A stretch of DNA of 44,652 bases from a virus, in the IMG/VR virus record IMGVR_UViG_3300031951_000331, positions 1 through 44,652 of that record; one strand, 5' to 3'. Under the pieces are notes generated by a model, which was not told the origin of the DNA, did no database searches, and saw only the letters and a program-made list of their open reading frames with translations. Position numbers and translations under genes: made by a program. Below, in pieces: positions 4,635-36,550 of this stretch. Position 1 is the first letter of the stretch. Each line of letters opens with the position of its first letter.

Positions 4635-5085
4635 AATCAGGCCGGCGCGGCCGGAGGACGTCGAGCCGATCGCCGCGGACATGCGGGAGGCTGACCGCCG
4701 CGAGGTCTGGGCCTCGAGCCTGGCGACGCCCCGGCTGGCCCTGGAGCGGTCTCTCGCCGCGTCGGCGGTGGCCTGGACGGGGCTGGTGGACGGACGCCCG
4801 GCGGCCATGTTCGGGGCGGCGCCGTTGTCTGAGCTGAGCGGGCGGGGATCTGCGTGGTTGCTTGGTGCCCGCGCCCTTGCGATAATCCCAAGGGATTTTC
4901 TCCTTCGCAGCAAGGACATGGTCGGCCTCATGCTGGAACGCTTCCCGGTCCTGACGAACCTGGTCGACGCGCGCAACGCGGCTTCGCTGCGGTGGCTGCG
5001 CTGGCTGGGGGCTCAATTCGGTCCGGCGCGGCCATACGGGCCGCTCGGGGCGCTCTTCGTCCCGTTCGAGCTGGGGAGGCGCTGA
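4621..5085 (+). CDS. Internal virion protein A-like (T7 gp13/DUF2833 family)
   Basis: The 154-residue protein opens IRPARPEDVEPIAADMREAD, the N-terminus of a GNAT-like acetyltransferase fold seen in the phage gp13/DUF2833 family. It ends with the NAASLRWLRWLGAQFG helix-strand that follows the acetyl-CoA site in that fold. Its place directly after the nozzle gene and before gp14-like matches T7 order. The start is taken as TTG 4621, preceded by GGAGGTGG at 4610-4617; no ATG fits as well. An exact copy of a 16-base regulatory-looking box lies inside the gene at 4877-4892. The stop overlaps the next ATG (TGATG). In T7 gp13 is dispensable for structure, and the exact role here is unknown. Confidence 0.82.
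   Translation: MASTEIRPARPEDVEPIAADMREADRREVWASSLATPRLALERSLAASAVAWTGLVDGRPAAMFGAAPLSELSGRGSAWLLGARALAIIPRDFLLRSKDMVGLMLERFPVLTNLVDARNAASLRWLRWLGAQFGPARPYGPLGALFVPFELGRR
4877..4892 (+). promoter_or_regulatory. 16-base regulatory box within the gp13-like gene
   Basis: TTGCGATAATCCCAAG is identical, base for base, to the box at 36515-36530 and oriented with transcription. No convincing -10 element lies 16-18 bases downstream of its TTGCGA, unlike the other copies. It may therefore be a binding site without a promoter, comparable in concept to the stoperators of mycobacteriophage L5. Confidence 0.45.
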
Positions 5086-7930: not shown

Positions 7931-10900
7931 GCGATCTCCTGCTGACCGAGGCGCTGCGGCTCAAGTCCGACCTTGAGCGCCAGCGTCAGGCGCCGAGCGC
8001 GGCGGACCTCGAGGCCGAGGCGAAGCGGATGCTGGCCGAGCAGAACGCGCAGGCGGTCCGGCAGGCGGCGCAGAAGGTGGGCGACGTCGAGCCCGATCAG
8101 GCCGCGCGCGCGCAGGCGCTGGCGGCGCAGACGGGGCTCCCCGCGGGCGTCGTCGAACGCAACGTGAACGAGGTCGAGCGCCGCGTGCGCATGCAGGCCT
8201 TTGATCGGGTCGCGGAAGACCCGGCGATGGCGGCGTTCTACTCTGACCCGTCCAATCTGGCGGTGGCGTCCGACGATATCGACGTGCTGCGCAGCGTCGC
8301 GGACGTGGTGCGATCGTTGCCGGCTGGCGCAATGAAGGGCGCCGGTGCGGGCCTCAAGGGCCTCGGCGAACAGATCGACGCCGGCGCCCGCATGATCGAC
8401 CGCGGGGTGCGCGGGGTGCTTGGGAACCGCGTCGCAGACGCATTCTGGTTCGACTACGGACCCAACCCAGCGACGCTGCTGATCGATGCGGGGCGGGCAG
8501 CTAAGGGGGCAGGCGCTGAGATCGCCGCGCCCGTCGAGCGGCAGAACATGGCGACAGATGTCGGCGAAGGGATTGGTCAGCTCGGCGCGCAGATATTCGC
8601 GATGCTCGTTTCGCGAGGCATGCTGGGATTGCCGATGCTGCTGGGGCAGGGCGCTGACCAGCAGGCTGAGAAGCAGGAAAAGGTTGGGGCCAAGGGGACG
8701 GTCGAGGGCGACGCGGCGATCTTCGCCGGCGCCGCGGTGACGGCGCTGACCGAGCGGTTCGGCCTCGACATCCTGATGCGCAAGGTGCCGGAATCCGTCC
8801 GCTCGTCCATCCTCAAGAAACTGGCGGACGTGTCGGTGCGGTTCGGCGCGGAGTACGCGCAGGAGGTCGTCGAGGGCATCCTCCAGAACGTGGTCGAGTA
8901 CGCCTTCTACAACCCCAACGCGGAAATCTTCGAGGACTTCACCTACGAGGCAACGGTGGCCGGGACGTCGGCCGCGATCGTGCGGTCGATCATCCTGACG
9001 GCCAGCGGCGGCAAGGCGGCGGCGCGCGCGCGGCAGGCCTCAGAGAAGGCCGAGAAGCAGGCCGAGCAGCTCAAGACGATCAACCAGCTCGCCGAGCAGT
9101 CCAAGCTGCGCGAGCGCAGCCCGGACAAGTTCCGCGCCTTCGTCACCGGCCTGATGAAGCCGGACCAGGCGGTCGAGATCGACGCGCAGACGGCGGTGAC
9201 GCTGTTCCAGGAACAGCCCGACCTCGCTCAGTTCATGTCGCCGGAAGAGGTCGAGCGGCTGGCCCGCGACGTGGCGGTGGCGCAGGAGACGGGCGCTGAC
9301 GTCCGCATGCCGCTGTCGACCTTCGTCAACGCCTTCGTCGGCACGCCGGCCTTCGACACGCTGGCGGAGAACGTGCGGCTGAGCGACGACGGTGTCACCG
9401 CGCGCGAGGCGGCGGAATGGACGCCCGAGCAGGTCGAGGAGCAACTCGGCCGGATGCGCGACGAACTGGGCGACGTCGTCAGCAAGCAGGACCAGATCCG
9501 CACGATCTACGACGATATCTTCGGCCAGCTCAAGGCGGCGGCGCTCGACGACGTGGCGGCGACGCAGTACGCGGCGCTGGTGACCGCGCGGGTGCGCACG
9601 CGCGCGGATCGCCTCGGGCTCGACCCGGTCGACGTCTACCTCGAGAACCGGCCGCTGGTGCGCCGCCAGCTCACGGGCGGCAAGATCGACCAGCTCGACC
9701 TGACGCTCGACGACCTGCGTTCGCCGGCGAAGATCACGTCGCGGCGCGCGTTCGGCTCGTCGCTGCTGGAGTTCCTCTCGCAGCGCGGCGGCCTGATCGA
9801 CGCGGGCGGCGAGCTGAAGGGCATGGACGCCGACAAGTGGCACCGGGGCCAGAAGGGCCGGCGGCGGCTGGTCGTCGAGACGCGCAACGCGGCGGCTGGC
9901 GAGAAGCTCACGCCGGGGACGGTCGACGCGACCGAGGCCTCGAAGCTCTCGCTGGACGAGGCGGCGCGCGCGGCCTGGGAGGAAGGCTACTTCCCCGAGT
10001 TGCCCGATCGGGCGACGCCGGAAGACCTGCTGTCGGCGATCGAGGCCGAGCTGCGCGGCAATCCGGTCTATTCCCCGCGCAACCGCAACGAGGCGCTGGC
10101 GCAGCGCCTGGACGCCATGGGGCAGCTCGACGAGGTGCTGAACACGCTGGGCCTCGACGTCAAGGCGGTGACGGGCGAGCAGGTCCGCGAGGCCATGGAC
10201 CGCTATGCGGCGGGGCAGGACGTCAACGCGGACGGCGAGCGGACGCTGGAGCAGGGCGATAATCTGCCCGCCGGCGAGGGTTCTGGGCAGACCGCTACTC
10301 AGGCAGGGGGTGGCCAAGCTCCGGCCGCCCAGGCCGCGCAGGACGGGCAGCCAAAGGTGTCTTTGGGGGCAGAGAGGACCGCGACTGTCGAGAAGGCCGC
10401 GGCGCTTGATGGCGAAGCGACCCGGATCAGCAAGTCCAAGGCCTGGGCTACCGGGCGCGACCTAAAGTTGGCGTTCCAGGAGTCTGTGCAGAATGCGGCC
10501 AAGGCCGCCGGCGTCGACCTGACCTCAGACTCGCCCGAGACGATAGCGTTCCTAACGCGCATGGCTGTGCGCGACGCGATCGAGGCGTTCAAGACAAACG
10601 CCAACGCGGTCGGATGGTACGACCTCAAGACGCGCCAGGCGCTGGCGGTCATGTCGTTGGTGCATCCCGAGATCGCGACTGACGAGCTCGCGCGGTTCCG
10701 GTTCACTTGGGCGCTGGCGGTAACCAGCAACGGGCTGAAGGTCGACAAGAACTTCGAGCTTGCCGAGCAAGTCTACCGGAGGATGAAAGGGAACAGCGTC
10801 GCGCCGGGCGAGATGCCGACAGACATCGAGGCGGGTAACGCGCAGGCGGCGATCAACAATTCGCTGGGACTGTTCAACCGCTTGCAGAAGCTGTGGGGCA

Positions 10901-13900
10901 TCGACAATCTGCGCCGCTTCATGCTGACCGATTTCACGGTCAGCGAGATCACGGCTATCGACAAGGATCTGAGCCCGACCGGCGAGTTCTCGACCGAGAC
11001 CGTCCGCGGCGCCGCGATCATTGGGCCCAAGATCGGCAACGGGTTTTTCTCGAACCTGTATGGGTTCTTCGACGCGCTTACCATGGACCGATGGCTCGTC
11101 CGGTCCTGGGGGCGCTGGACCGGCACTCTGATCCAGGTCGACCAAGAGGCGGCATCGCGGGGGCGCACACGACTACGGGCTGCGCTGGGCGGGCTGGACG
11201 TTGAGGCGTTTGCGCGCGAGCTGCGCAGGATCACCAGGAAGGGCGCCAAGGGGCAAGACCTTGAGGTGAACCGCGCTGACCGCGAGCGCATGATTGCCGC
11301 GCTGGAGGCGCGCGCCGGGGCTGGCGCAGAAGTCGTGACCGACGCCGACCTGGACCAGGTCGCGCTTGCTGTTGGCAAGGGATCGGCGACGCCTCAATTC
11401 CGCGCCATAATGGACAGGGTCGGCGATGACGGCGGCGCCGCCGCATCGGCATGGGTTGCTGCCTACGAAGAGGGGCTGGCGAAGTTCTCTGGCGAGACGA
11501 AAAGCGAGGGTCTGGCGACCAAGTACGCAAACGATGCCGTCCCGGCGCCCGATAGCAGCTACGGGAAAGGGCTTCGCAACGCCGCCAACAACCTGGCGAA
11601 ACAACTTGACGGCCAGAAGGAGCAGCCCGCGGGGCCTGCCGAGCGCCAGAAGATCCGCGCGGTGTTTCGCCTTGCGCTGGCCGAGTTGCAGAAGCGGCCG
11701 GAGTTTGCGTCGCTCAACATGAGCGATTTGCAGGCGCTGCTCTGGTACGCGGAAAAGCGCCTCTACGAGACCGCAAAGGAAGATGTCGTTCTTGCCGAGA
11801 AGCCGGACGAGGCCGGCAAAGGAAGTGCGAAGACCAAGGTTGAGCCCGTCGACATCGGGGGGTATGATGACGACGAGGCCCCGGACTACGCCAACGCCGC
11901 CGCGGCAGTCGCGCGCGCGCAAGGCGTGTCGGAGCGTCGCATTAAGGCGGCGCTGACCAAGGAGGAAAAAAATGGACGCGCAGCAGCAGCACGACCTGGA
12001 GATGGCGGACTACAAGCCGGCGCCGGGCAGCCGCCAGCGGCTCGAGGCTTTGCTGGCTCAGAAAAGCGCCGCTTCGTCGGAGACGCTGCCACCCGGCGCG
12101 TCCGATCCGATCGCGGTCGCAATGCGGAACCATCCGGGTCTTACCAGGGAAGAGGCCGAAAAGATGGCAGAGGCGTTCGGCTTCTAAAGCCGGCAGACCT
12201 TGGTGTAACCGCGGTCGAGCGGTGGGAGGCGGGGCGCTACCTCAAGCAAGTTTTCAACCGAAATGGCGTCGAGACGCCGGCGTTTTTTGAACTGGCGCCT
12301 GGCGACGAAAAGAACGCGCAGGCTTTTGCGGCAGCAATTACCGCCGCGAAAGAACGGATGGGCGCCGTTGGGGCCGCCGTCTTTGTCTATGACCCGGCGG
12401 ACTATGCCGGCATGCGCCTGTTTCTGTCTGAGAACGGCCAGGCCGGCGTTGCGATCAAGCCGGACGGCGACATTGTGTCGGTGTTCGGCGGTGGCGGCAC
12501 AGGCCGCGCGGTCATGGAGCTGGCTGTCGCCGCAGGCGGTCGGAAGCTCGACGCATTCGAGACCATTCTCCCAGAGTTCTACGCCGCGCATGGCTTCCGC
12601 GCTGTTGCCCGTTTGACGTGGGATGACAGTCAGGCTCCTGCCGGATGGGACAAGGCGGCATTCGCCAAGTTCAACAACGGCGAGCCCGACGTCGTCTTCA
12701 TGGTTTACGACCCGGCCCACACCGGCCGGCACTCGTTGCGAGATGGGGTCAGGCTGAAGGGCGAAGGAAGCTACGACCGCGCCGTCAGGGCGCAGGCCCG
12801 CGAGATGAAGGCGATCGCCAATCGTGCCGGCGAGGGGCGAACCCTAGAACAGCCCGCACGCCCGCGCATCGCCACCTGGTTCTCGGGCGCGCGAACGCTC
12901 GAGGCCGCGATCGGCGCCGTCGATAGCACGATGGCGGTTGAGTACGACGCCGAGATCAACGAGTTCGCCAACACGGCCTTCGGCACCGCCTTCGTGACGC
13001 GCGGTGTCGGCGACGTCGACCCGCAGGAGATCGCGGACGCGGACGTCACGCTGTTTCACGCCAGCCCGGTCTGCAAGAACTTCAGCGCGGCCAAGACGCT
13101 GCGCGGCGCAAACGAGCTGGACCGGGCCAGCGCGCAGGCCGTGGCGCGCGCGATCACGGTGGCCAAGCCGCCGGTCGTCACGATCGAGAACGTGCCGCAG
13201 TACGCCGAGACGGCGCTGTTCAAGGAGATCACCGACGCGCTCAACGCGGCCGGGTACACCTGGGACATCGTCATCCACGACGCGGCAGACTACGGCGCGG
13301 CGCAGACGCGCAAGCGCATGCTGTTGCGCGCGGTGCGTGACGGCGAGTTGCCGCCGCTGCCGGAGAAGGTGGGGCCGAGCGACTGGTACGAGGCGCTGTC
13401 CGACCTGATCGAGGACGCGCCGGACGGGACGATCCCGCCGGTCGAGCGCCAGCGCCTCGACGACATGATCGCGAAGGGGCGCCTCGACGCGGGCCAGCCG
13501 ATCATCACCATGGGCGGGTCCGGGTTCCGGGGTAGCTGGTCTGCGGCGAACGCCGGCGGCGCGGCGCCGACGCTCAAGGCGGCGAACGAGAAGCCGCGGA
13601 TCATCCTGCCGGACGGCCGGGTGAAGGTCGTCACGCCGCGCATGATGGCCCGGCTGATGGGCCTGCCCGACACATACCCCGTGCCGGACTCGGCGACGCT
13701 GGCGAAGACGGTGCTGGGCAACGGCATCGAGGGCAACGTGACGCGCTCGCTGATCGCGCCGCTGCTGGAGACGGCGGGCGAGGGGCGGACGCTGGAGCAG
13801 CCCGCACGCCAGGACCGCGGCCCGCTCGCGACTGTCGAGGCGCAGCTCGCTGACCTTGCGGATGACATCGACGGGATCCGCGACGGCGAGTTCGATCCCG

Positions 13901-16900
13901 CCGCCGCGCGCAAAGTGCTGGACAAGCTGAGCGAGGGCGAGCGCGCGGACTATCGCGCGCGCATGCTGGACCGCGCACTGTTGTGGCTGGACGGACAGAT
14001 CGACGCCGATCAGGACGCTGTCGCGGAGGAGATCCTTGCGGTCCTGAACCGGTCCCAGCAGGTGGCCGAGATGCGTGGCCGGATGGCTGCGGCTGTCGAG
14101 CGCGGCGACACGCTGGAGCAGGGCGACGCGCGCGCGCCGGGCGCGACATTGCAAGTTCCAGCCGACATGGTTGGAAACCGCACATACGATGACCCAAAGG
14201 CTTTTGAAGAACTGCAACAAAACATCGCCGACTTTATCGGCGCAAAAATTGACGCGCGCGGCAAAAAATACATTCGGTCTAATCGGCACGATGGGTTCGT
14301 TGTGTCCGAGGATGGATTTTCCAGCGTTTATTTAAAGACGCCCGACAATCTTTTGCTTCGCGTTTCAAATCACAGGCCCAAAAACAAGCTGAGCGGCGCG
14401 TTTTCGGACATATATGTAACGATTGATAATCTTTGGGCCACGATAGAGCTGGGCAAAGAAAAGACGTTTGTGCCTGTAAACTTTCAGGACGAGTGGGACG
14501 AATATGTAGATCCCACTTTTGGCGACCGTCTTGGCGCTGCCTTGTCTGATGTAATTGCCAAGGCGCGAGCTGCGAAGAAGCAAGATTTCAATCAGCGCGA
14601 AGGCTCCATGCCCCGCGGCTCCATCCGCCTGCTTCCCGGCGGGCGGTCGATCATCACGCTGACCGAGAAGGCCGACCTCTCGACTTTCCTGCATGAGCTG
14701 AGCCACGGCTGGCTCGAGGAGCTGCGCGCCGACGCCCAGCGCCCCGACGCGCCGGCCGAGATTGTCGCGGACTGGGAGCGGACGGCGGCCTATCTCGGGA
14801 TTGCCCCGGACGTGGCCGAGATCCCGGTCGAGGCGCATGAGACCTGGGCGCGCACGGGCGAGGCGTACTTCCGCGAGGGCAAGGCGCCGGCGCAGGATCT
14901 TGCCTCGGTCTTCCAGCGGTTCAAGGCGTGGCTGACCCGCATCTACAAGACGCTGACCGAGCTGCGGGTGCCGATCAACGACGAGATCCGGGGCGTGTTC
15001 GACCGCCTGATCGCGAGCGACGAAGAGATCGCCGCGGCGCGGCGCGAGTACGGGCTCGACGCGCTGTTCTCGACGGCGCAGGCCGCCGGCATGACCGAGG
15101 CCGAGTTCAGGGCCTACGCGGACCTGGCGGCGCGCGCGCGGCTCGAGGCCGAAACCGAGGTCGCCGAGGCGCTCCAGCGCGACGCTGAACGCGAGCAGAC
15201 GGAGCAGTATCGCGAGGCGCGCGAGGCGATCGCCAACGAGGTCGAGGCGCAGGTCCGGGCCGAGCCGGTGCATCAGGCCATTGCGTTCCTGACGGCCGGG
15301 CGGCTGCCGGACGGCTCGACGGTCGACGCGCCGGTCAAGCTGGCGCGCGGCCTGCTCAAGGACGCCTACGGCGCGCGCGTGACCAAGCGTCTGCCGCGGG
15401 GCGTGACGGCCGACGAGGGCGTGCCGGCGGACATGGTCGCGTCCATGTTTGGGTTCACCTCTGGCGACGAGCTGGTGCAGGCCATGCTGGCCGCGCCGCC
15501 GATCGAGCAGGAGATCGAGCGCCGGACGCAGGCTCAGTTGCGCGCGCAGTTCCCCGACGCGCGGACGGACGGCCGGGCCTACGAGGCGTCGATCGCGGCG
15601 CTGCACGGCGACGGGCAGATGCGGGTTCTGGAGGCCGAGTTCCGGGCGCTGAAGCGGCTGGGCGCGGGCCAGATGGTCGACGCGGCGGTCCGGCGGACGC
15701 TGGCCGGCCAGAAGGCGCCGAGCGCGGCCGACGTGACCGACGCCGACGTGACGCAGCAGGAATCCGAGGCGGTGCGCATGTCGCCCGGCGCGGGGCCGCA
15801 GGGGCGCGCGGACGCGGCGCTGGGGCGGGCGCGCGTGCAGGCGACGGCCAAGGCGGCCAAGGACATGCGCGGCGACCAGGCGGCGGCCCGGCGCATCGCC
15901 GTCGACGCTCTGTCGGTCGACCGCGAGGCGATCGAGCGGGCCGTCGACCAGTTGAATGCGACGACGCAGGTCCGCGAGATCATGGACACGCAGCGGTGGC
16001 GGCGGGCCGAGAAGGCCGCGGCGAAGGCCGTGGTCGACGCGGTCGCCGGGCGCGAGTGGGCGGCGGCAGCCTGGCACCAACGCCAGCGCATCATCGCGGC
16101 GCACATGGTCAGGCGCTCGACCGAGGCCCGCAAGGAGATCGAGACGGCGATCGAGCGGTTCCGCAAGTATTTGTCGAAGAAGCCGGGCGCGATCGACTGG
16201 GACTACCTCCAGCGCGCGCGGGCGATCCTTGAGGCGTACCAGTTCGGCTCCGAGATGTCGGACCGCCGGCGGGCGGTGCTTGAGCTGCGGCAGATCGAGC
16301 GGTGGAAGGCCGCGCTGGCCGAGGACGAGCAGGCGAGGCTGGAGATCGCGCCGGAGATCCTGGCGGCGGATGGCACGACGCACTACCGCGACCTGACGCT
16401 CGAGGAGTTCATCGCGCTGCGCGACACGGTCGAGAACATCGTCGCGGTCGGCCGGACGAAGACGCGGCTCCTGCGCAACAAGGCCGAGCGCGACCTCAAC
16501 CGGACGGCGGCGCTGGTCGCCGAGACGATCCTCGACAACCTCAAGGTCAAGGCGCGGCGCTCGCGCGACGCAATCGAGAAGGGCGTCGGCTACGGGCTCG
16601 AGCGGTTCAAGAACCAGTTCTTCGCCTCGCACCGCAAGATCGAGAACCTGGTGCGGGAGATGGACGGCTTCGCGCCGCTGGGGCCGGTGTGGCAGGCGCT
16701 GTTCAAGCCCTTGCAGGACGCGCAGAACGACGAGACGCGCATGTCGATCGAGGCCACGGCCAAGATCAAGGAGCTGTTCGAGCGGTTCCCCGAGGACGGG
16801 CGCCGGACGTGGCGCACGCGCACGACCTACCATCCCGAGATCGGTCAGCCGCTGAGCAAGGCGACGGTGATCTCGCTGGCCTTGAACTGGGGCAACGAGG

Positions 16901-18519
16901 GCAACCGCGAGGCCATCCGCAAGGGCTTCAAGTGGTCGGACGCGCAGGTCGACGCGGTGTTCGCGCGGTCGATGACCGAGGCGGACTGGCAATTCGTTCA
17001 GTCGGTCTGGGACTACATCGACACGTTCTGGCCGGCGCTGGCCGCGCTTGAGAAGAAGGTCAAGGGCGTGGTGCCGGTCAAGGTGGACGCGGCGGCGGTC
17101 GCGACGCCGTTCGGCGAGTTCAAGGGCGGCTATTACCCGCTGAAGTACGACCCGGACATGAGCGAGCGGGCCTACTCGCACCAGGTCGACAAACTGGCGC
17201 AGCAGCTCATGAGCGGCGCCGTGGCCAAGGCCTCGACGCGGACGGGCGCGGCGATCGAGCGCGTGGGCTCCGGCGGCATGCCGGTGCGCCTCGAGCTCGA
17301 CGTGCTGTTCGAGCACGTCGCCGAGCTGATCCACGACATCAGCCACCGCGAGGCGATCCTCGACGTTGCCCGCCTGCTGGACCACCCCGAGGTCAGGGGC
17401 GCGATCCTCGACGTCAAGGGGCCGCAGTTCCATCGCGTCATGAAGGAATGGGTGCGCGACATTGCGGCTGGTGACGTTCCGGCCCTGAGCCCGTTCGACA
17501 AGGTGGTGCAGCACCTGCGGTCGGGCATGTCGATCTCGGCGATGGGCTGGAAGCTCACGACGGCGATGGTCCAGCCGACCGGCTTCTTCTCGTCGGCGGC
17601 GGCGCTGCCCAAGGGCGTGCTGGCCAAGCATGTCGCCAGCTTCTACGGCGCCCCGCAGGGGATGAAGCAGAAGGTCGCCTTCGTCTATGAGCGGTCGGTC
17701 GAAATGCGCACGCGCGCCAAGAGCCTCGACCGGGACATCCGCGACACGCTGCGGCAGCTTGGGCCGGAAGGCAAGATTGACGCGGTCAAGCGGTCGTTCT
17801 TCTACCTGACCGGCATGATGGACATGGGCGTCGCAGTGCCGACGTGGCTGGCCGCCTACGAGGTCGGCATGGAACAGTTCGACGGGGACGAGGCCAAGGC
17901 GATCGACTACGCGGACCAGACCGTGCGCACGACGCAGTCCTCGGGGCTCCAGAAGGATCTGGCGCAGATCCAGCGCGGCGACCCGCGCATGAAGATGTTC
18001 ACCGCGTTCTATTCGTTCTTTTCGGCCAGCTACAACATGATGGTCGACCAGGCGCGCGGCGTGCGTCGGCCGGCCGACATGCCAAAGTTCGTGGCCAACA
18101 TGGCGCTGCTGACGTTCCTGCCGGCGATCGCGTCCGAGCTGATGATGGGGCGCGGCCCGGAGGACGACGAGGAGCCGGAGGGCTGGGCGAAGTGGATGGC
18201 GGCGACGACGCTGAAATACGCGCTCAGCGGCTTCGTTGGGGTCCGCGACGTGGTCAACGCGCTGGGTTCCAATTTCGGCTACGCCGGCTCGCCGGTCGGG
18301 TCGGCGGTCGAGAGCCTCGTCCGGCTGGGCAAGCAGATCGGGCAGGGCGAGGCCGACCGCGGGCTGGTCAAGGCGGCGGTGGACACGGCGGGGCCGGTCC
18401 TGCACCTGCCAAGCCGGCAAGCCTGGATCACGGCCGAGGGCATCTACCTGTGGGCCGAGGGCGCCGACATCACGCCGTTCGAGATGTTCGTCACCCGCGA
18501 CCCGGACAAGTTTCGTTGA
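7927..18519 (+). CDS. Giant polyvalent ejection protein with embedded C5 methyltransferase (gp16 position)
   Basis: At 3,530 residues this is far larger than T7 gp16 (about 1,300). Modules in order are: a helical/hydrophobic N-terminal region (1-480); a conserved phage module with FLSQRGGLIDAGG and WEEGYFPEL (about 600-760); a module of unknown function (about 830-1345); an R/G-rich segment overlying a nested gene (1350-1421); a GNAT-like module (about 1422-1640); a cytosine-C5 methyltransferase (1643-1954); an AT-rich-coded module (2066-2220); a zincin-like segment HELSH at 2256-2260; long helices; and an LPD38-like C-terminus (about 3150-3530). The methyltransferase shows SPVC with Cys1716, IENV at 1753-1756, QTRKR at 1793-1797 and LGNGIEGNV at 1930-1938. 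TLEQ occurs at 773, 1639, 1955 and 2062. Injection with the DNA, where it could modify or protect the genome, is inferred from its position and from what is known of polyvalent proteins. Confidence 0.85.
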   Translation: MSDLLLTEALRLKSDLERQRQAPSAADLEAEAKRMLAEQNAQAVRQAAQKVGDVEPDQAARAQALAAQTGLPAGVVERNVNEVERRVRMQAFDRVAEDPAMAAFYSDPSNLAVASDDIDVLRSVADVVRSLPAGAMKGAGAGLKGLGEQIDAGARMIDRGVRGVLGNRVADAFWFDYGPNPATLLIDAGRAAKGAGAEIAAPVERQNMATDVGEGIGQLGAQIFAMLVSRGMLGLPMLLGQGADQQAEKQEKVGAKGTVEGDAAIFAGAAVTALTERFGLDILMRKVPESVRSSILKKLADVSVRFGAEYAQEVVEGILQNVVEYAFYNPNAEIFEDFTYEATVAGTSAAIVRSIILTASGGKAAARARQASEKAEKQAEQLKTINQLAEQSKLRERSPDKFRAFVTGLMKPDQAVEIDAQTAVTLFQEQPDLAQFMSPEEVERLARDVAVAQETGADVRMPLSTFVNAFVGTPAFDTLAENVRLSDDGVTAREAAEWTPEQVEEQLGRMRDELGDVVSKQDQIRTIYDDIFGQLKAAALDDVAATQYAALVTARVRTRADRLGLDPVDVYLENRPLVRRQLTGGKIDQLDLTLDDLRSPAKITSRRAFGSSLLEFLSQRGGLIDAGGELKGMDADKWHRGQKGRRRLVVETRNAAAGEKLTPGTVDATEASKLSLDEAARAAWEEGYFPELPDRATPEDLLSAIEAELRGNPVYSPRNRNEALAQRLDAMGQLDEVLNTLGLDVKAVTGEQVREAMDRYAAGQDVNADGERTLEQGDNLPAGEGSGQTATQAGGGQAPAAQAAQDGQPKVSLGAERTATVEKAAALDGEATRISKSKAWATGRDLKLAFQESVQNAAKAAGVDLTSDSPETIAFLTRMAVRDAIEAFKTNANAVGWYDLKTRQALAVMSLVHPEIATDELARFRFTWALAVTSNGLKVDKNFELAEQVYRRMKGNSVAPGEMPTDIEAGNAQAAINNSLGLFNRLQKLWGIDNLRRFMLTDFTVSEITAIDKDLSPTGEFSTETVRGAAIIGPKIGNGFFSNLYGFFDALTMDRWLVRSWGRWTGTLIQVDQEAASRGRTRLRAALGGLDVEAFARELRRITRKGAKGQDLEVNRADRERMIAALEARAGAGAEVVTDADLDQVALAVGKGSATPQFRAIMDRVGDDGGAAASAWVAAYEEGLAKFSGETKSEGLATKYANDAVPAPDSSYGKGLRNAANNLAKQLDGQKEQPAGPAERQKIRAVFRLALAELQKRPEFASLNMSDLQALLWYAEKRLYETAKEDVVLAEKPDEAGKGSAKTKVEPVDIGGYDDDEAPDYANAAAAVARAQGVSERRIKAALTKEEKNGRAAAARPGDGGLQAGAGQPPAARGFAGSEKRRFVGDAATRRVRSDRGRNAEPSGSYQGRGRKDGRGVRLLKPADLGVTAVERWEAGRYLKQVFNRNGVETPAFFELAPGDEKNAQAFAAAITAAKERMGAVGAAVFVYDPADYAGMRLFLSENGQAGVAIKPDGDIVSVFGGGGTGRAVMELAVAAGGRKLDAFETILPEFYAAHGFRAVARLTWDDSQAPAGWDKAAFAKFNNGEPDVVFMVYDPAHTGRHSLRDGVRLKGEGSYDRAVRAQAREMKAIANRAGEGRTLEQPARPRIATWFSGARTLEAAIGAVDSTMAVEYDAEINEFANTAFGTAFVTRGVGDVDPQEIADADVTLFHASPVCKNFSAAKTLRGANELDRASAQAVARAITVAKPPVVTIENVPQYAETALFKEITDALNAAGYTWDIVIHDAADYGAAQTRKRMLLRAVRDGELPPLPEKVGPSDWYEALSDLIEDAPDGTIPPVERQRLDDMIAKGRLDAGQPIITMGGSGFRGSWSAANAGGAAPTLKAANEKPRIILPDGRVKVVTPRMMARLMGLPDTYPVPDSATLAKTVLGNGIEGNVTRSLIAPLLETAGEGRTLEQPARQDRGPLATVEAQLADLADDIDGIRDGEFDPAAARKVLDKLSEGERADYRARMLDRALLWLDGQIDADQDAVAEEILAVLNRSQQVAEMRGRMAAAVERGDTLEQGDARAPGATLQVPADMVGNRTYDDPKAFEELQQNIADFIGAKIDARGKKYIRSNRHDGFVVSEDGFSSVYLKTPDNLLLRVSNHRPKNKLSGAFSDIYVTIDNLWATIELGKEKTFVPVNFQDEWDEYVDPTFGDRLGAALSDVIAKARAAKKQDFNQREGSMPRGSIRLLPGGRSIITLTEKADLSTFLHELSHGWLEELRADAQRPDAPAEIVADWERTAAYLGIAPDVAEIPVEAHETWARTGEAYFREGKAPAQDLASVFQRFKAWLTRIYKTLTELRVPINDEIRGVFDRLIASDEEIAAARREYGLDALFSTAQAAGMTEAEFRAYADLAARARLEAETEVAEALQRDAEREQTEQYREAREAIANEVEAQVRAEPVHQAIAFLTAGRLPDGSTVDAPVKLARGLLKDAYGARVTKRLPRGVTADEGVPADMVASMFGFTSGDELVQAMLAAPPIEQEIERRTQAQLRAQFPDARTDGRAYEASIAALHGDGQMRVLEAEFRALKRLGAGQMVDAAVRRTLAGQKAPSAADVTDADVTQQESEAVRMSPGAGPQGRADAALGRARVQATAKAAKDMRGDQAAARRIAVDALSVDREAIERAVDQLNATTQVREIMDTQRWRRAEKAAAKAVVDAVAGREWAAAAWHQRQRIIAAHMVRRSTEARKEIETAIERFRKYLSKKPGAIDWDYLQRARAILEAYQFGSEMSDRRRAVLELRQIERWKAALAEDEQARLEIAPEILAADGTTHYRDLTLEEFIALRDTVENIVAVGRTKTRLLRNKAERDLNRTAALVAETILDNLKVKARRSRDAIEKGVGYGLERFKNQFFASHRKIENLVREMDGFAPLGPVWQALFKPLQDAQNDETRMSIEATAKIKELFERFPEDGRRTWRTRTTYHPEIGQPLSKATVISLALNWGNEGNREAIRKGFKWSDAQVDAVFARSMTEADWQFVQSVWDYIDTFWPALAALEKKVKGVVPVKVDAAAVATPFGEFKGGYYPLKYDPDMSERAYSHQVDKLAQQLMSGAVAKASTRTGAAIERVGSGGMPVRLELDVLFEHVAELIHDISHREAILDVARLLDHPEVRGAILDVKGPQFHRVMKEWVRDIAAGDVPALSPFDKVVQHLRSGMSISAMGWKLTTAMVQPTGFFSSAAALPKGVLAKHVASFYGAPQGMKQKVAFVYERSVEMRTRAKSLDRDIRDTLRQLGPEGKIDAVKRSFFYLTGMMDMGVAVPTWLAAYEVGMEQFDGDEAKAIDYADQTVRTTQSSGLQKDLAQIQRGDPRMKMFTAFYSFFSASYNMMVDQARGVRRPADMPKFVANMALLTFLPAIASELMMGRGPEDDEEPEGWAKWMAATTLKYALSGFVGVRDVVNALGSNFGYAGSPVGSAVESLVRLGKQIGQGEADRGLVKAAVDTAGPVLHLPSRQAWITAEGIYLWAEGADITPFEMFVTRDPDKFR
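11972..12187 (+). CDS. Nested small gene, 71 residues, inside the giant gene
   Basis: An open frame one base out of register with the giant gene begins MDAQQQHDLEMADYKPAPGS and ends GLTREEAEKMAEAFGF. It has its own strong ribosome binding site, AAGGAGG at 11959-11965, six bases before the ATG. Roughly 80% of its third codon positions are G or C, as in real genes here. In the giant frame over the same bases only about half are, and the encoded sequence becomes R/G-rich and featureless. Small proteins ending in a PGLTREEAExMxExxGF motif are familiar to me from phage and prophage loci, but I know no function. It is either expressed as an overprinted gene or is a relic of a gene boundary absorbed into the giant frame. 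Confidence 0.6.
   Translation: MDAQQQHDLEMADYKPAPGSRQRLEALLAQKSAASSETLPPGASDPIAVAMRNHPGLTREEAEKMAEAFGF
14128..14580 (+). other. AT-rich coding module within the giant gene
   Basis: GC content falls to about 40-48% in the 60-base rows I counted (14161-14220 and 14401-14460), against clearly higher values on both sides. The encoded residues (about 2066-2220) include KKYIRSNRHDGFVVSEDG and FSDIYVTIDNLWATIELG. The segment lies between a TLEQ motif at 2062-2065 and an FNQ motif at 2221-2223. It looks like a recently acquired cassette. Confidence 0.6.
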
Positions 18520-18527
18520 CCGGATGC

Positions 18528-18557
18528 TTGTGGAAATCCCAAGGCATTCGGGATAGA
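18528..18557 (+). promoter_or_regulatory. Putative promoter with regulatory box before the tail fibre gene
   Basis: The intergenic stretch 18520-18584 holds TTGTGGAAATCCCAAG (18528-18543), three mismatches from the genome's 16-base box. Its first hexamer can serve as a -35, with GATAGA (18552-18557) 18 bases downstream as a -10. The predicted start near 18564 precedes an AAGGGGA ribosome binding site and the ATG at 18585. Both hexamers are weak matches to the sigma-70 consensus. Confidence 0.4.
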
Positions 18558-18584
18558 TTGGCGTAACCGCAAGGGGATCTCACG

Positions 18585-21838: not shown

Positions 21839-21853
21839 TTGGGACAATCCCAA
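21839..21853. promoter_or_regulatory. Palindromic TTGGGA-CAA-TCCCAA site
   Basis: A perfect inverted repeat with six-base arms lies in the 109-base gap between the late operon end (21812) and the integrase stop (21922). Each arm matches the core of the genome's regulatory box, in opposite orientations. A TTGCGATT sequence follows at 21865-21872. The gap has no convincing gene and could also hold the phage attachment site, but I cannot identify a core. Confidence 0.4.
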
Positions 21854-21921: not shown

Positions 21922-22848
21922 CTACTTACGCTCCGTTTTCCCGGCGTTTTCCAGGCGAAAGATCGCCGCCGTCGCGCGCCGCTTCTGGTCGGCGTCGCGG
22001 GTGTAGAGCTCGATCATGGCGAGGGTTCTGTGCCCGGTGATCGCGGCGATCTCATGCGTCGAGCATCCAGCCTCGGCGAGGCGGGCGGCAGCGGTCTTGC
22101 GCAGCCCGTGAAACGTCACGCCGCGCAGGGCCGGGATCTGGCCGGCGGCCATGGCGAAGCGGGTGGACAGGACGCGGCCGGACCGCCACGGGCGACCGTG
22201 GATCGTGGCCAGCATGGTGACGGCGGCGCGCGGCCAGGCGTCAAGCTCAGCGCGCAGGGCAGCGTGCGCCGGCACCCATAGCCTGGCGCCGGTCTTCTGC
22301 TGCACGACCTCGATGCCCTGGCCGTCGTAGGCCGACCATGTCATGCCGGCGCAGTCGCCGATTCGCTGGCCGGTGTAGAGGCCGAGCACCGCGGCGCGGC
22401 GCAGGTTCTCCGGCAGCTTGCCGATCGCGGCGACCTGCGCCTCGGTCCAGGCGCGGCGCTCCCCGCCGGGCAGGTTCTTGAAGCCGATCAGGACGTTGTA
22501 TTCCAGCAGGTCGTCCTCGACCGCGAAGGCGAGGATCGTGCGGGCCAGCTTGGCGACGGCGTTCGCGACCGCAGGCGTGGCGACGGCCAGCTCGTCGCGG
22601 ATCGCGCGGATATGACGGCGCTTGATCTCGGCGATGGGCACCTCGGCGAGCGGGCGCAGGTGCTCAAGGTAGTGCAGATAGGCGGTTTTTGTCGCGGGGG
22701 CCAGCCCGGCAAATCGGGCGGACCGGCGGTAGCTGGAGATCACCCGGCCTAGGGTCCAGACGGCGTCCTGCCGCGGGGCGCTGGAGTAGGTGTAGGTCTT
22801 GACGGTCCCGTCAGCGAGCCGCCGCGTTACGCGCTTTTCTGATGGCAT
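21922..22848 (-). CDS. int: Tyrosine recombinase integrase
   Basis: The 308-residue protein has a SAM-like core-binding domain (about residues 30-115) and a catalytic domain. Its conserved residues are all visible: R162 in GQRIGD, H247 and R250 in HGLRKTA, H273 in GHRTL and the nucleophile Y282 in IELYTRD. An N-terminal TVKTYTYS strand may form an arm-binding region. The ATG at 22848 is preferred over a longer frame because that extension overlaps the excisionase gene and shows no domain. It overlaps the upstream gene by 38 bases. As the last gene of the leftward operon it mediates site-specific integration and, with the upstream protein, excision. Confidence 0.95.
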   Translation of the reverse strand: MPSEKRVTRRLADGTVKTYTYSSAPRQDAVWTLGRVISSYRRSARFAGLAPATKTAYLHYLEHLRPLAEVPIAEIKRRHIRAIRDELAVATPAVANAVAKLARTILAFAVEDDLLEYNVLIGFKNLPGGERRAWTEAQVAAIGKLPENLRRAAVLGLYTGQRIGDCAGMTWSAYDGQGIEVVQQKTGARLWVPAHAALRAELDAWPRAAVTMLATIHGRPWRSGRVLSTRFAMAAGQIPALRGVTFHGLRKTAAARLAEAGCSTHEIAAITGHRTLAMIELYTRDADQKRRATAAIFRLENAGKTERK

Positions 22849-23053
22849 TGACCGCTTGCTCCGTGGCCTGGTCCGCGCTGACACGATGCGCGGCGCTGAT
22901 CCGCGACGCAAGCCATGCGTCGAGGGCTGCGACCGGCCAGCGCGCCAGCCGGCCGATCTTGATGGGTTTCGGGCCGTGGCGCCGCAGGCTCATGCGGGAC
23001 AGGCCAAGGTATGCGGCGGCGTCGCCTTCGCGCAGCAAGGTGGGGGTCATCAT
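22811..23053 (-). CDS. Excisionase-like HTH protein
   Basis: The 80-residue protein carries a MerR/AlpA-like winged helix: LLREGDAAAYLGLSRMSLRR, then PIKIGRLARWPVAALDAWLA. This fold is typical of excisionases and of directors of recombination. A flexible tail follows. The start at 23053 forms an ATGA overlap with the stop of the upstream 55-residue gene, with GGAAG eight bases before it. It directly precedes and overlaps the integrase gene, the usual xis-int arrangement. A role only in transcription is also possible. Confidence 0.8.
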   Translation of the reverse strand: MMTPTLLREGDAAAYLGLSRMSLRRHGPKPIKIGRLARWPVAALDAWLASRISAAHRVSADQATEQAVNAIRKARNAAAR

Positions 23054-27400: not shown

Positions 27401-27444
27401 CGTCGGGCTCCCTTGGTTGCGGCCACGTCGTCGGCCGGTGTTGG

Positions 27445-27496
27445 GTTTATGACAACACACTTTCGAGCCGTCAAGCGCAATCTTGGGATTTTCTGG
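27445..27496 (-). promoter_or_regulatory. Leftward sigma-70-like promoter with regulatory box
   Basis: On the minus strand TTGACG (27468-27473) and CATAAA (27445-27450) are separated by 17 bases, the best sigma-70 match in the window. Just upstream lies CCAGAAAATCCCAAG (27481-27495), sharing the AATCCCAAG core of the genome-wide box in the same orientation as transcription. The promoter would drive the 27104-27400 gene, exonuclease, recT and possibly int. Confidence 0.6.
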
Positions 27497-27500
27497 TACG

Positions 27501-30260: not shown

Positions 30261-30499
30261 CAGAACAGCGCCTCCTGCGCCGGGGCAGGGGCGGGGCGGT
30301 TGGGCCGGTGCGCGCCGCAGTACCAGCGCCCGAGGCGCCGATATCCTTCCTCGCGCTTGCCGGCGAGGATCAGCGCCAGCCCCTTCGTCGGGTAGCAGTC
30401 GAACCCGAACGGGGCAGGGGCCGTGCAGCCCGGCTCCTCGCAGGTCTGGTGCCAGAACACCGCGCCGGTCTCTCGCGACCGCGTGAGCCGGACCGGCAT
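30260..30499 (-). CDS. Hypothetical protein, 79 residues, cysteine-containing
   Basis: The product starts MPVRLTRSRETGAVFWHQTC and contains four cysteines and histidines (HQTCEEPGC, DCYP, WYCGAHRP) that could bind zinc. The GPAPFGFDCYPTKG-like middle resembles small zinc-ribbon proteins found in phage early regions, but I do not know a function. The ATG at 30499 overlaps the stop of the Cro-like gene (TGATG), which favours it over a GTG one codon earlier. Its stop overlaps the methyltransferase start. Confidence 0.65.
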   Translation of the reverse strand: MPVRLTRSRETGAVFWHQTCEEPGCTAPAPFGFDCYPTKGLALILAGKREEGYRRLGRWYCGAHRPNRPAPAPAQEALF

Positions 30500-30702
30500 C
30501 ACACGACCAGGTCAGCGTGCTTCAGCGCGACGCGCCGCGCGCGCGCCTCCTCGAGCAGGCGGCGGTGGTGCTGCGCTGGCACCGACGTCCAGCGGCAGAC
30601 GGTCGATTTGTCGCGCCCGACGATTCGGCCGACCTCGGCCAGCGTCCCGAACCGTTCGACCAGCCGGTCGAGCACCGGCGACCGCTTGGGGTTTTGCGCC
30701 AT
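30499..30702 (-). CDS. Cro-like HTH regulator
   Basis: The 67-residue protein has a helix-turn-helix at residues about 12-45 (LVERFGTLAEVGRIVGRDKS, then TVCRWTSVPAQH), the YdaS/Cro style of small phage regulators. It is the first gene of the leftward transcript and lies back to back with the CI-like repressor across a 171-base control region. A GGAG ribosome binding site lies eight bases upstream of the ATG. It probably competes with the repressor at the shared operators to favour lytic growth; this is inference from the classic arrangement. Confidence 0.82.
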   Translation of the reverse strand: MAQNPKRSPVLDRLVERFGTLAEVGRIVGRDKSTVCRWTSVPAQHHRRLLEEARARRVALKHADLVV

Positions 30703-30873
30703 GGCGAATCTCCATCTTGGGAAACCGCAGCATGTATACCCTAGATGTTGGGATTAAGGCAACGCGCGCGTCGCGCTATGCGGGGATCAGCGCGTTGCCG
30801 GGTTGGCTTTTCTGCAACGTCTGATAGAGTGAGCCCGTGTAACTTTTCGCGAAACCCCTTGGATTCTCGACCC
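30703..30873. promoter_or_regulatory. Divergent immunity control region
   Basis: This gap separates the Cro-like and CI-like genes. Leftward, TTGCCT (30757-30762) and TATACA (30733-30738) are 18 bases apart and form a good promoter. Its -35 lies inside GTTGGGATTAAGGCAA (30747-30762), a close match to the reverse of the genome-wide box. A second half-site, CTTGGGAAACCGCAG (30716-30730), covers the expected start. A CGTTGC/GCAACG inverted repeat lies further right, toward the repressor gene. The repressor promoter itself is not clear. Confidence 0.6.
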
Positions 30874-31443
30874 ATGAACGCACAATGGTTTCGAGCGCGG
30901 CTCAAGGACCAGCACAAGTCTCAGCGCGCCCTGGCGCAGGTGTTGGGAGTTGACCCTGCGCAGGTGACCAACATGTTCAAGGGGCGCAGGCGCATGCAAT
31001 TGACCGACGCATCTCTCATTGCGAGCTTCCTCAACGTGCCGGTGGAAGAAGTCCTCCGGCAGGCGGGCCTCCCCGTCTCGCCCGCAGGCCGCCGCGTCCG
31101 TCTCGCCGGCACGGTCGACGAACACGGCGAGATCCACCTGTCGGACAGCCCCGAGGCGGACGTCGATGCCCCGGCCTCGGCGCCGGAAGGCACGGTCGCC
31201 GTGCGCGCGACCTCGTCGGCGCAGCTCATGCGCCACGCGCTGGTGTTTTTCCGCCCCGCGGCCGGCGTCGATCCCTCCGCGATCGGGCGTCTGGCGATCT
31301 GCCGGATCGGCGAGGGGCCGTGGCTCCTGCGGTCGGTCACGCCGGGCGTCGAGCCGGGAACCTACGACCTCGCCGCGCTGGCCGGGGACATTGTCGGAGC
31401 GACGCTATCGGCCGCCGTGCCTGTGCTCTGGATACGGCCCTAA
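30874..31443 (+). CDS. CI-like phage repressor
   Basis: The 189-residue protein has an N-terminal helix-turn-helix (LKDQHKSQRALAQVLGVDPA, then QVTNMFKGRRRM). Its C-terminal domain is laid out like the LexA/S24 fold (TVAVRATSSAQLMRHALVFF, then WLLRSVTPGVEPGTYDLAAL). The usual catalytic GDSM serine motif is not visible, so RecA-stimulated self-cleavage is doubtful. The start at 30874 begins the HTH domain; the longer upstream frame lies in the control region. It is the only rightward gene among the leftward early genes and should bind the operators to its left to keep the prophage silent. Confidence 0.85.
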   Translation: MNAQWFRARLKDQHKSQRALAQVLGVDPAQVTNMFKGRRRMQLTDASLIASFLNVPVEEVLRQAGLPVSPAGRRVRLAGTVDEHGEIHLSDSPEADVDAPASAPEGTVAVRATSSAQLMRHALVFFRPAAGVDPSAIGRLAICRIGEGPWLLRSVTPGVEPGTYDLAALAGDIVGATLSAAVPVLWIRP

Positions 31444-34239: not shown

Positions 34240-34585
34240 TGGTCCTCCGGTGGGCAGGGAGGTCAGGATGCCGAAAGGTTGGGAAAAACGCAAGCCCAAG
34301 GTTACACGTTACGGGCGCGTAACTGGTAAGTCATTGAAAACAAACGAAGGTGACGAGTTACGCTTTTTCCCCCCTATACATACATATATAGACACATAGT
34401 GTGCGTGCGTAAGACATACATACGGACAGACACTATACGATATATATATATATATGTTACTTATGTAACTATCTATCTATCTAGAGGGCAAGCCCTTGGA
34501 CGACAACGAAAATACCCGGTTACGAGATCCAGTAACGAAGCGTAACGGGCGATACCGCTTGCCGGACGGCGAAGGCGTTGGCAAA
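34240..34585. other. AT-rich intergenic island, candidate replication origin
   Basis: No gene is evident here. In an otherwise GC-rich genome it holds a long TA alternation (34440-34455), CTAT and CATA runs, and eight GTTAC/GTAAC words. These lie at 34301, 34308, 34319, 34357, 34456, 34465, 34519-34523 and 34532-34536, with another CGTAAC at 34541-34546. Some are paired as inverted repeats, for example GTTACG-GGCG-CGTAAC at 34308-34323 and GTTAC-TTAT-GTAAC at 34456-34469. Iteron-like words plus an easily melted tract beside a primase gene fit an origin. A binding region for another protein is possible. Confidence 0.55.
34265..34293 (-). promoter_or_regulatory. Putative primase promoter with regulatory box
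   Basis: On the minus strand TTGCGTTTTTCCCAAC (34278-34293) matches the genome-wide box at most positions. Its TTGCGT hexamer is 17 bases upstream of CATCCT (34265-34270), a weak -10. Transcription would start near 34257, before the GGAGG and the primase ATG at 34239. Confidence 0.4.
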
Positions 34586-35071
34586 ATGCCAAGCATGGCC
34601 AAGACCAAAGCCAAGCGCCGCCCCGGCCGTCCGTCCAGCTACACGCCCGAGCTGGCCGCGAAGATCTGCGCGCGCATTGCCGGCGGCGAGAGCCTCCGCT
34701 CCGTCTGCCGAGACCCGGCCATGCCGGACCTGACGACCGTCTTCCGATGGATGCCCAAGCGCCCGGAGTTCCACAAGCAATACGACGAGGCTTGCGACGC
34801 CCGCGCCCAGGCCATGTTCGACGAGCTGGTCGAGATCGCCGACACGCCCATGCAGGGCGACGTCATCACCGAGTTCGACGACGGCCGGCGAGAGATCAAG
34901 CGCGGGGACATGCTGGGGCATCGTCGCCTCCAGGTCGACGTCCGCAAGTGGGCGCTCGCCCGCATGTCGCCCAAGCGGTTCGGCGACAAGGTCGGCGTCG
35001 AGCATACGGGCACGGTCAGCCTCGAGGCGCTGGTGCTGGGCAGCCTCAAGCGCGAGGGCGACGGCGAGTGA
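34586..35071 (+). CDS. Terminase small subunit
   Basis: The protein (161 residues from ATG 34586; ATG 34595 is an alternative) starts MPSMAKTKAKRRPGRPSSYT. It carries a helix-turn-helix region (AAKICARIAGGESLRSVCRD, then TVFRWMPKRPEF) typical of small terminase subunits. The DEACDARAQAMFDELVEIAD helix and WALARMSPKRFGDK follow, matching a widespread phage small-terminase type. It recognises phage DNA to start packaging. GAAGG ten bases before 34586 supports that start. It begins the rightward late operon, and its stop overlaps the large subunit start (GTGA). Confidence 0.88.
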   Translation: MPSMAKTKAKRRPGRPSSYTPELAAKICARIAGGESLRSVCRDPAMPDLTTVFRWMPKRPEFHKQYDEACDARAQAMFDELVEIADTPMQGDVITEFDDGRREIKRGDMLGHRRLQVDVRKWALARMSPKRFGDKVGVEHTGTVSLEALVLGSLKREGDGE

Positions 35072-36492
35072 CATCCGCGGTCGCATCCGATCGCATCCGA
35101 CTCTGGCGCGAGAAGCCGCAGGCGTTCGTGCGCGAGTGCCTCGGCGTCGTGCCGGACCCGTGGCAGGACTACGTTCTCGAGGCGTTCCCGCACAACCAGC
35201 GCGTGGCGCTGAAGGCGTGCAAGGGGCCGGGCAAGACGGCGCTGCTCGCCATGCTGGCCTGGAACTTCCTGCTGACCCGGCCACACGCCAACATCGCCGC
35301 GACGTCGATCACCGGGGACAACCTCAAGGACGGGCTCTGGAAGGAGATGGCCAAGTGGCAGAAGCGATCGCCGCTGCTGACCGCGGCCTTTGAGTGGCAG
35401 AAGCAGCGCATCGTCTGTCGCGAGCATCCCGAGACGTGGTTCATGTCGGCGCGCTCCTGGTCGAAGGGCGCGGACTCGACGCAGCAGGCGGACACGCTGG
35501 CCGGCTTCCACGCTGACTACCTGCTGTTCCTGCTCGACGAGGTCGGCGGCATCCCCGACGCGGTCATGGCGGCGGCCGAGGCCGGCCTCGCCTCGGGCGT
35601 CGAAACGAAGCTGATGATGGCGGGCAACCCGACGCATCTCGAGGGGCCGCTGTGGCGCGCGTCGACGACCGAGCGCCATCTCTGGTTCCTGCATGAGATC
35701 ACCGCCGACCCGGACGATCCGCTGCGCACGCCGCGCGTGTCTGTCGAGTGGGCGCGTCAGCAGATCGAGAAATACGGGCGGGACAGCCCATGGGTGCTGG
35801 TCAACGTGTTCGGCCGGTTCCCGCCGTCGAGCCTCAACGCGCTGATCGGGCCGGACGAGGTGCGAGAAGCCATGCGCCGGCATCGGCGCGAGGACGAGTA
35901 TTCCTTCGCGCCGCGCGTGCTGGGCGTCGACGTGGCGCGTGAGGGCGACGATCGCAGCGTGATCTTCCCGCGTCAGGGGCTGGTCGCGTTCGAGCCGATC
36001 ATCCTGCGCAACGTGAACTCGGTGCAGGGCGCCGGCGCGGTCGCGCGCAAGATCACCGACTGGCGGGTGCAGGCGACGTTCGTCGACAACACGGGCGGGT
36101 TCGGCGGCGGCTGGATCGACCAGCTCCAGTTGCTGGGCCACGCGCCCCTGCCGGTTCACTACGCCGGCCGGCCCAACGACGCGCGGTATCTGAACAAGCG
36201 CGCCGAGATGTGGTTCGAGCTGTGCGACTGGATCAAGGGCGGCGGGACGCTGCCTCCGGTAGACGAACTGGTGGCCGAGCTGACGACGCCGACCTACACG
36301 TTCCGGGGCGACAAGCTGCAAATCGAACCCAAGGACCAAGTGAAGGAGCGGCTGGGCCGCAGCCCCGATCTGGCCGACGCGCTGGCGCAGACCTTCGCCG
36401 AGTTCGTGGCGCCGCCGCCCGCCATTGACCGCGCCGGCGATCGCCGCGCGCCCGTCGCCAAGGGCGTCGACTACAACCCGTTCGCGTTGTAG
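35068..36492 (+). CDS. terL: Terminase large subunit
   Basis: The 474-residue protein shows PWQDYVLEAF, a Walker A-like ACKGPGKT (residues 50-57, K56), Walker B LLFLLDEVGG with D157 and E158, MMAGNPTH as the coupling motif, and a nuclease domain starting GVDVAREGDD with D288. It is the ATPase/nuclease motor that fills the capsid. The start is GTG at 35068, sharing bases with the small-subunit stop; the longer frame upstream is a shadow of the small subunit. The stop is followed by a 59-base gap holding a promoter-like box. Confidence 0.95.
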   Translation: MTSAVASDRIRLWREKPQAFVRECLGVVPDPWQDYVLEAFPHNQRVALKACKGPGKTALLAMLAWNFLLTRPHANIAATSITGDNLKDGLWKEMAKWQKRSPLLTAAFEWQKQRIVCREHPETWFMSARSWSKGADSTQQADTLAGFHADYLLFLLDEVGGIPDAVMAAAEAGLASGVETKLMMAGNPTHLEGPLWRASTTERHLWFLHEITADPDDPLRTPRVSVEWARQQIEKYGRDSPWVLVNVFGRFPPSSLNALIGPDEVREAMRRHRREDEYSFAPRVLGVDVAREGDDRSVIFPRQGLVAFEPIILRNVNSVQGAGAVARKITDWRVQATFVDNTGGFGGGWIDQLQLLGHAPLPVHYAGRPNDARYLNKRAEMWFELCDWIKGGGTLPPVDELVAELTTPTYTFRGDKLQIEPKDQVKERLGRSPDLADALAQTFAEFVAPPPAIDRAGDRRAPVAKGVDYNPFAL

Positions 36493-36514
36493 AAAAGCCA
36501 ACCTACTGAAATCG

Positions 36515-36550
36515 TTGCGATAATCCCAAGCCGGGGCTATCATCCCCGGC
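36515..36550 (+). promoter_or_regulatory. Late promoter candidate with regulatory box and hairpin
   Basis: TTGCGATAATCCCAAG (36515-36530) is identical to the box at 4877-4892. Its TTGCGA serves as a -35, 17 bases from TATCAT (36538-36543), a strong -10. The -10 lies in the loop of a hairpin, GCCGGGG/CCCCGGC (36530-36536 and 36544-36550). Expected initiation is at about 36550, next to the ATG at 36552. Confidence 0.55.

Follow-up and report, generated by a model that had tools for sequence, protein, structure and literature searches.

In phage lambda, the operators cluster at OL and OR, and the late genes use antitermination. Regulons with scattered operators are already known from epsilon15, P1, and L5. 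The closest structural relative of the regulon described here is that of the Salmonella phage epsilon15 (Uetakevirus, repressor gp38), whose GenBank record carries seven scattered repressor sites of 16–17 bp upstream of the small terminase gene, gp3/portal, the tailspike gene, and the early operons. A pattern search of epsilon15 (L054) found 13 copies of its palindrome compared with the seven annotated, including those at 24703, 26881 (near int), 33340, 33357, and 35968. In phage P1, a single repressor, C1, acts at 22 operators spread across the genome (PMC8546580). Mycobacteriophage L5 has more than 20 dispersed repressor sites, some of them away from promoters, and these 13-bp sites are asymmetric and monomer-bound, and their orientation matters (PMC9283540).

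The window analyzed here is an entire IMG/VR virus record of 44,652 bases, with roughly 69% GC and with 4.3% of its length intergenic. It represents a temperate podovirus-like phage that encodes epsilon15-type portal and capsid proteins (about 52% for the portal-type protein in comparison with epsilon15) and resembles epsilon15 in its virion genes and gene plan. RecE/RecT, a Dcm-like methylase, an integrase, and a divergent CI-like/Cro-like pair are also encoded. The CI-like repressor (30874..31443, plus strand, 189 aa) has an N-terminal HTH_3 domain and is the proposed binder, whereas the Cro-like HTH protein (30499..30702, minus strand, 67 aa, weak HTH_23 match) is the first gene of the leftward early operon. 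The tyrosine-recombinase-like integrase (21922..22911, minus strand), identified by eye from its translation, is consistent with a temperate lifestyle and is kept in the related phages G2, G3, and C70. Within the window, genes and intergenic regions were delimited by hand, and annotations of the reference phages were used as deposited. The protein encoded at 7927–18519 has 3530 residues, including a C-5 cytosine methylase domain and an LPD22 domain, and can be likened to the giant proteins (DarB-like or methylase) of Bcep22-like phages.

The relatives used for comparison were few (five records), with G2 close to G3 and G1 close to the window. The CI proteins of these relatives stood at 93% (G1), 65% (G2), 63% (G3), and 65% (the MAG phage, C70 and L028) relative to that of the window. 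The MAG phage is about 45 kb long and lies on two contigs (G005 C255 and C70; L028 and L046/L047) of an Azospirillum-labeled MAG, which suggests a Rhodospirillales-type host for the group.

An earlier note on this DNA had described a recurrent 16-base box, and the recurrence proved to be real. The 16-mer TTGCGATAATCCCAAG gave six strand-specific matches (4877 counted on both strands) against 0.07 expected, with no more than two in 100 shuffles; the copies at 4877 and 36515 were exact, and those at 18528, 21839, and 30747 (minus strand) had three mismatches. An exact 16-mer scan of viral contigs found it in 20 contigs, including three known relatives. However, the box is not an asymmetric operator, as had been proposed, but a 15-bp imperfect inverted repeat, TTG-N9-CAA, with the core TTGSS-AT-rich-SSCAA. 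The copy at 4877 matches TTGCGATAATCCCAAG on the opposite strand too, and spacing 9 stood out among the TTG...CAA pairs of the window and four related records. The asymmetric reading arose because only the CCCAA halves had been compared. In an unbiased dyad scan of the intergenic DNA of the window (all trimers, spacings 3–20, about 1150 dyad types), TTG-N9-CAA ranked first, with 10 occurrences compared with 0.49 expected (Poisson p = 1.4e-10). When the trimer scan was run over the whole genome, coding periodicity swamped the signal, whereas the intergenic restriction worked. The consensus of 52 sites consists of TTG, two mostly G/C positions, a five-base center, and the mirror image, and the three middle positions of the center are strongly A/T despite the high GC content of the genome (roughly 69%).

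This palindrome resembles FNR-type boxes, and the phage might therefore be using sites of a host transcription factor (FNR/FixK- or LacI-like). FNR-type boxes have spacing 8, whereas the spacing enriched here is 9. Alphaproteobacterial phages do use the host regulator CtrA (PMC9437464). In the MAG, however, 6 of the 13 matches to the strict pattern fell on the two phage contigs (about 1% of the genome), and the half-site letters vary with the CI homologue, as described below. We consider a host factor very improbable.

A site matrix was built from the five records of related phages only, with the window excluded, and was then applied to the whole window. The top of the ranking comprised exactly 11 positions, from 24.3 to 15.4 bits (in order: 36515, 4877, 34279, 30748, 21839, 27441, 34578, 18528, 30803, 36487, and 18558), and the next position reached 7.9 bits; the maximum in Markov simulations of the window averaged 11.1 bits. 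Ten of the 11 sites were intergenic, although so little of the window is intergenic (p = 2e-13), and the eleventh (4877) was inside a late gene. Together, the sites span early and late units: cro, cI, early-left, primase, terminase, portal, tail fiber, the int/holin gap, and the intragenic place. The copies listed in the earlier note at 4877, 18528, 21839, 30747, 34278 (minus strand), and 36515 were full sites, whereas that at 27481 was only a half-site, and the list was incomplete, as five full sites picked by the matrix (18558, 27441, 30803, 34578, and 36487) had been missed. G1, G2, G3, and the MAG phage have sites at the same genes as the window.

Promoters were scored with a sigma70-type matrix, for which random windows gave a mean of 4.4, an SD of 2.6, and a maximum of 11.4. 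In the immunity region, the operator TTGCCTTAATCCCAA (30748..30762, minus-strand sequence) covers the cro -35 (TTGCCT-18-TATACA; score 10.5 at 30762), and TTGGCTTTTCTGCAA (30803..30817) covers the probable cI -35 (TTGGCT-16-TAGAGT; 8.3 at 30803); both sites have equivalents in G1, G2, G3, and L028. The copy noted previously at 30716 was confirmed as a half-site, TTTCCCAAG (30717..30725, minus strand), just upstream of the cro start and not a full dyad. The idea that two copies flank the Cro promoter thus holds loosely, with a full dyad over the cro -35 and a half-site near the cro start, but the other full dyad lies over the cI promoter instead. In the early-left region, TTGTCATAAACCCAA (27441..27455, minus-strand sequence) lies over the -10 of a leftward promoter (TTGACG-17-CATAAA; 11.4 at 27474) upstream of g27104/recE/recT, with equivalents at G2 8963, G3 3518, and C70 4661. 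The half-site AAAATCCCAAG (27483..27497, minus strand) lies upstream of the -35 of this promoter and is possibly a weak second operator; a similar half-site was found in records L006 and L007.

The true site TTGCGTTTTTCCCAA (34279..34293, minus-strand sequence) lies some 40 bp 5' of the primase gene, has equivalents at G1 6974, G2 15809, and L028 3789, and showed no clear promoter in register with the sigma70-type matrix. The primase-terminase gap at 34340–34520 is strongly AT-rich and of low complexity (CATACATATATAG, ATATATATATAT, and CTATCTATCTAT) compared with the rest of this GC-rich phage, and could be a candidate replication origin. Directly upstream of the putative small terminase gene (34595), TTGGCAAAATGCCAA (34578..34592) lies over the -10 of TTGCCG-17-CAAAAT (10.3 at 34559), with equivalents at G1 7269, G2 17519, and G3 12247. 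Because the random maximum reaches 11.4, the promoters at 30762, 34559, and 30803 are only suggestive. Upstream of the 69-aa ORF/portal gene, the pair TTGTAGAAAAGCCAA (36487..36501) and TTGCGATAATCCCAA (36515..36529) is kept in G1, G2, and G3, and the second member lies over the -35 of TTGCGA-17-TATCAT, the best promoter in the set (13.3 at 36515). The tail-fiber promoter (12.2 at 18531) carries TTGTGGAAATCCCAA (18528..18542), followed by TTGGCGTAACCGCAA (18558..18572) just 5' of the tail-fiber gene (18585); a site pair is also found upstream of this gene in G2 (268 and 291), and a single site in C70 (13512).

The earlier note had placed the TTGC end of the box at the -35 position. This was good at 36515 and 30747 and weak at 34278, whereas the top-scoring promoter at 18528 has a different -35 within the box. 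Similarly, the box covers the -35 and spacer at some sites, including cro, cI, and portal, but the dyads at 27441, 34578, and 4877 lie over the -10, and that at 21839 has no promoter. That the copies read with transcription reflects which of the two halves also serves as the -35, and it has an exception in G2, where the TTGCGATAATCCCAA copy at 8872 precedes recE, a leftward gene, and has its TTGC end directed to the right. If the box were a conserved promoter element recognized by a particular sigma factor or activator, TTGC at the -35 of several sites would be accounted for, but a fixed element would hold its register, and the highly symmetric copy at 21839 has no promoter; we regard such an element as extremely improbable. 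The varying register is as expected for a steric operator.

Two sites lie away from the 5' ends of genes. The intragenic operator, again TTGCGATAATCCCAA (4877..4891), is inside a gp13-like (acetyltransferase-type) late gene (4621–5085) and overlaps the -10 of a possible internal promoter (TTGCTT at 4858, 17-bp spacer, GATAAT at 4881–4886; score 12.5). The window and G2 have the site at codon offset 256, C70 has it at the corresponding aligned position, and the residues over it differ (LAIIPR, LVKIAR, and IAKIPR in the window, G2, and C70, respectively). The codons used at 4877 are rare in the late genes of the window (CTT 7%, ATA 2%, CCA 6%, and AGG 5% of the codons for their amino acids). The constant offset with differing residues and the rare codons point to selection on the DNA and not on the protein. 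The dyad TTGGGACAATCCCAA (21839..21853) is perfect apart from three central bases and sits in the gap where the late operon (holin-like end) and the integrase converge; no promoter was found there (best score 5.9, near null). Equally symmetric dyads were present at G2 4945 (L034) and C70 9303 (L046), such that three phages have a promoterless symmetric dyad near int at the matching place between convergent operons. One guess is that dyads of this type act as a roadblock or a looping anchor or lie near the attachment site.

These two sites, one intragenic and one promoterless between convergent operons, would fit stoperators that mainly halt elongation, as in L5. However, L5-type sites are asymmetric, orientation-dependent, and bound by monomers (PMC9283540), whereas the window sites are dyads, and at G2 8872 the TTGC end opposes transcription. 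Most window sites, the intragenic one included, also coincide with promoter-like sequences. A main function as stoperators thus appears decidedly unlikely.

To the question of the binder, the earlier note had answered with a CI-like or Cro-like protein, and the comparison of phages narrows this to CI as the likely candidate. Remote CI homologues were found in phages of Burkholderia, Pseudomonas, Klebsiella, Serratia, and Erwinia. In Bcep22-like and allied podophages, the identity was 27–30% (E 5e-13 to 1e-24) across most of the protein, including the HTH and the C-terminal part. Unbiased intergenic tetramer scans showed that these phages have scattered, odd-centered dyads of the same 17-bp geometry as in the window, with different letters. 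The rank-1 dyads (p 3e-7 to 8e-9) were TGGT-N11-ACCA (GGT-N11-ACC) in BcepIL02 and JC1, GTTT-N9-AAAC in Itty13, GTTG-N9-CAAC in SopranoGao, and TGTT-N11-AACA (GTT-N11-AAC) in Parlo; in Stean and PEp14, TGTT-N11-AACA was second, after the terminator-like CCCC-N8-GGGG. An identical 17-mer, GTTGCGATTGTAGAAAC, occurs in three genera (SopranoGao 41321, Parlo L051 4201, and PEp14 L052 37), and its position in SopranoGao and Parlo is immediately 5' of the small terminase gene. The Cro-slot proteins of the CI-homologue phages showed no similarity to the window Cro, and TTG-N9-CAA was absent from the intergenic DNA of epsilon15 and BcepC6B, both of which are without a CI homologue. Because the dyad geometry tracks the CI family where the Cro-slot protein is unrelated, the window CI-like protein is the likely binder of the dyads.

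The 67-residue Cro-like protein could instead be the main binder, with the boxes serving as switch-off sites in the lytic phase. In lambdoid phages, Cro shares the CI operators, and the window Cro is conserved alongside CI in G1, G2, G3, and L028. However, the geometry persists where CI is kept and the Cro-slot protein is non-homologous, and no dyad enrichment was found in G4/L032, which shares only a short Cro-like HTH stretch and was set aside. We judge Cro unlikely as the main binder, although it may also bind or compete at the same sites as CI.

Features of CI were also compared with the half-site letters. HTH residue 28 (lambda Q44 by alignment) varies with base 2 of the half-site, being Pro in phages with GTT half-sites, where base 2 is T, and His in the two phages with GGT, where it is G. 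The His phages belong to one genus, so this link represents a single evolutionary event. A second link, between residue 33 and base 4, was noted before three more phages were tested and held partly, with PEp14 mixed. The CI N-terminal domain had a weak match to the lambda repressor in the PDB (E 0.005), and in the AlphaFold model the N-terminal part was good, whereas the C-terminal part had a pLDDT under 50. Pfam gave no match to an S24 peptidase domain in the C-terminal part at E ≤ 0.1, and induction may thus bypass RecA-stimulated self-cleavage.

Taken together, the sequence comparisons strongly support the earlier proposal that one operator family places these promoters in a single regulon controlled by a regulator of the phage itself, and the boxes are very probably operators of the CI-like repressor. 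In the proposed mechanism, a repressor dimer would bind each 15–17-bp imperfect dyad, (G)TTGSS-AT-rich center-SSCAA(C), and a higher oligomer would occupy the paired sites. Dyads over the -35 (cro, cI, and portal) or the -10 (early-left, terminase, and intragenic) would exclude RNA polymerase; the primase and tail-fiber genes have sites at the 5' end. Early as well as late units of the prophage would thereby be silenced directly, with autoregulation of cI. That CI binds and represses at these sites, and that Cro competes for them, is inferred from the comparative evidence.

Silencing of early and late genes by one protein is a known kind of control, whereas this repressor and its docking sequence have most likely not been described before. 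The P1 operators are asymmetric 17-bp sites (ATTGCTCTAATAAATTT), unlike the dyads of the window. The Bcep22-like and allied podophages (Lessievirus, Ittyvirus, Lastavirus, Parlovirus, and Pavtokvirus) resemble the window in having a CI homologue divergent from a small regulator and scattered intergenic dyads of the same span, but differ in half-site letters, an unrelated Cro-slot protein, and genomes of 60–63 kb. For the operators of this CI family, no description was found in the accessible literature, with subscription papers mostly outside the search. The window thus provides an operator sequence and a target promoter list for a family that spans phages of alpha-, beta-, and gammaproteobacteria. 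As in lambda, cI and cro are divergent with operators over both promoters; unlike in lambda, the late promoters carry operators, and direct repressor control of late genes would depart from the lambda scheme. With epsilon15, the window sites fall at genes equivalent to those with repressor sites, although epsilon15 has no intragenic site corresponding to 4877. The window CI is not detectably homologous to the epsilon15 repressor (gp38/SPC32H Rep family), as the blastp match of 20.8 bits (E 0.011 or 0.18 with different search sets) fell outside the HTH. The epsilon15 palindrome is ATTACC-N5-GGTAAT, unlike TTG-N9-CAA, and TACC-N5-GGTA occurs 0 times in the window compared with 13 times in epsilon15. 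Equivalent target genes with a non-homologous repressor and palindrome indicate that the two phages share the wiring but not the repressor-operator pair. It is about as likely as not that, in two groups of epsilon15-like phages, a complete repressor-operator system with some ten sites was exchanged or arose twice, while the wiring (operators at the terminase, portal, tail fiber/spike, recombination, and cI/cro units) was retained. The comparison with epsilon15 makes it testable how immunity specificity changes in a phage whose dispersed operators, ten or more in number, have to change in concert.
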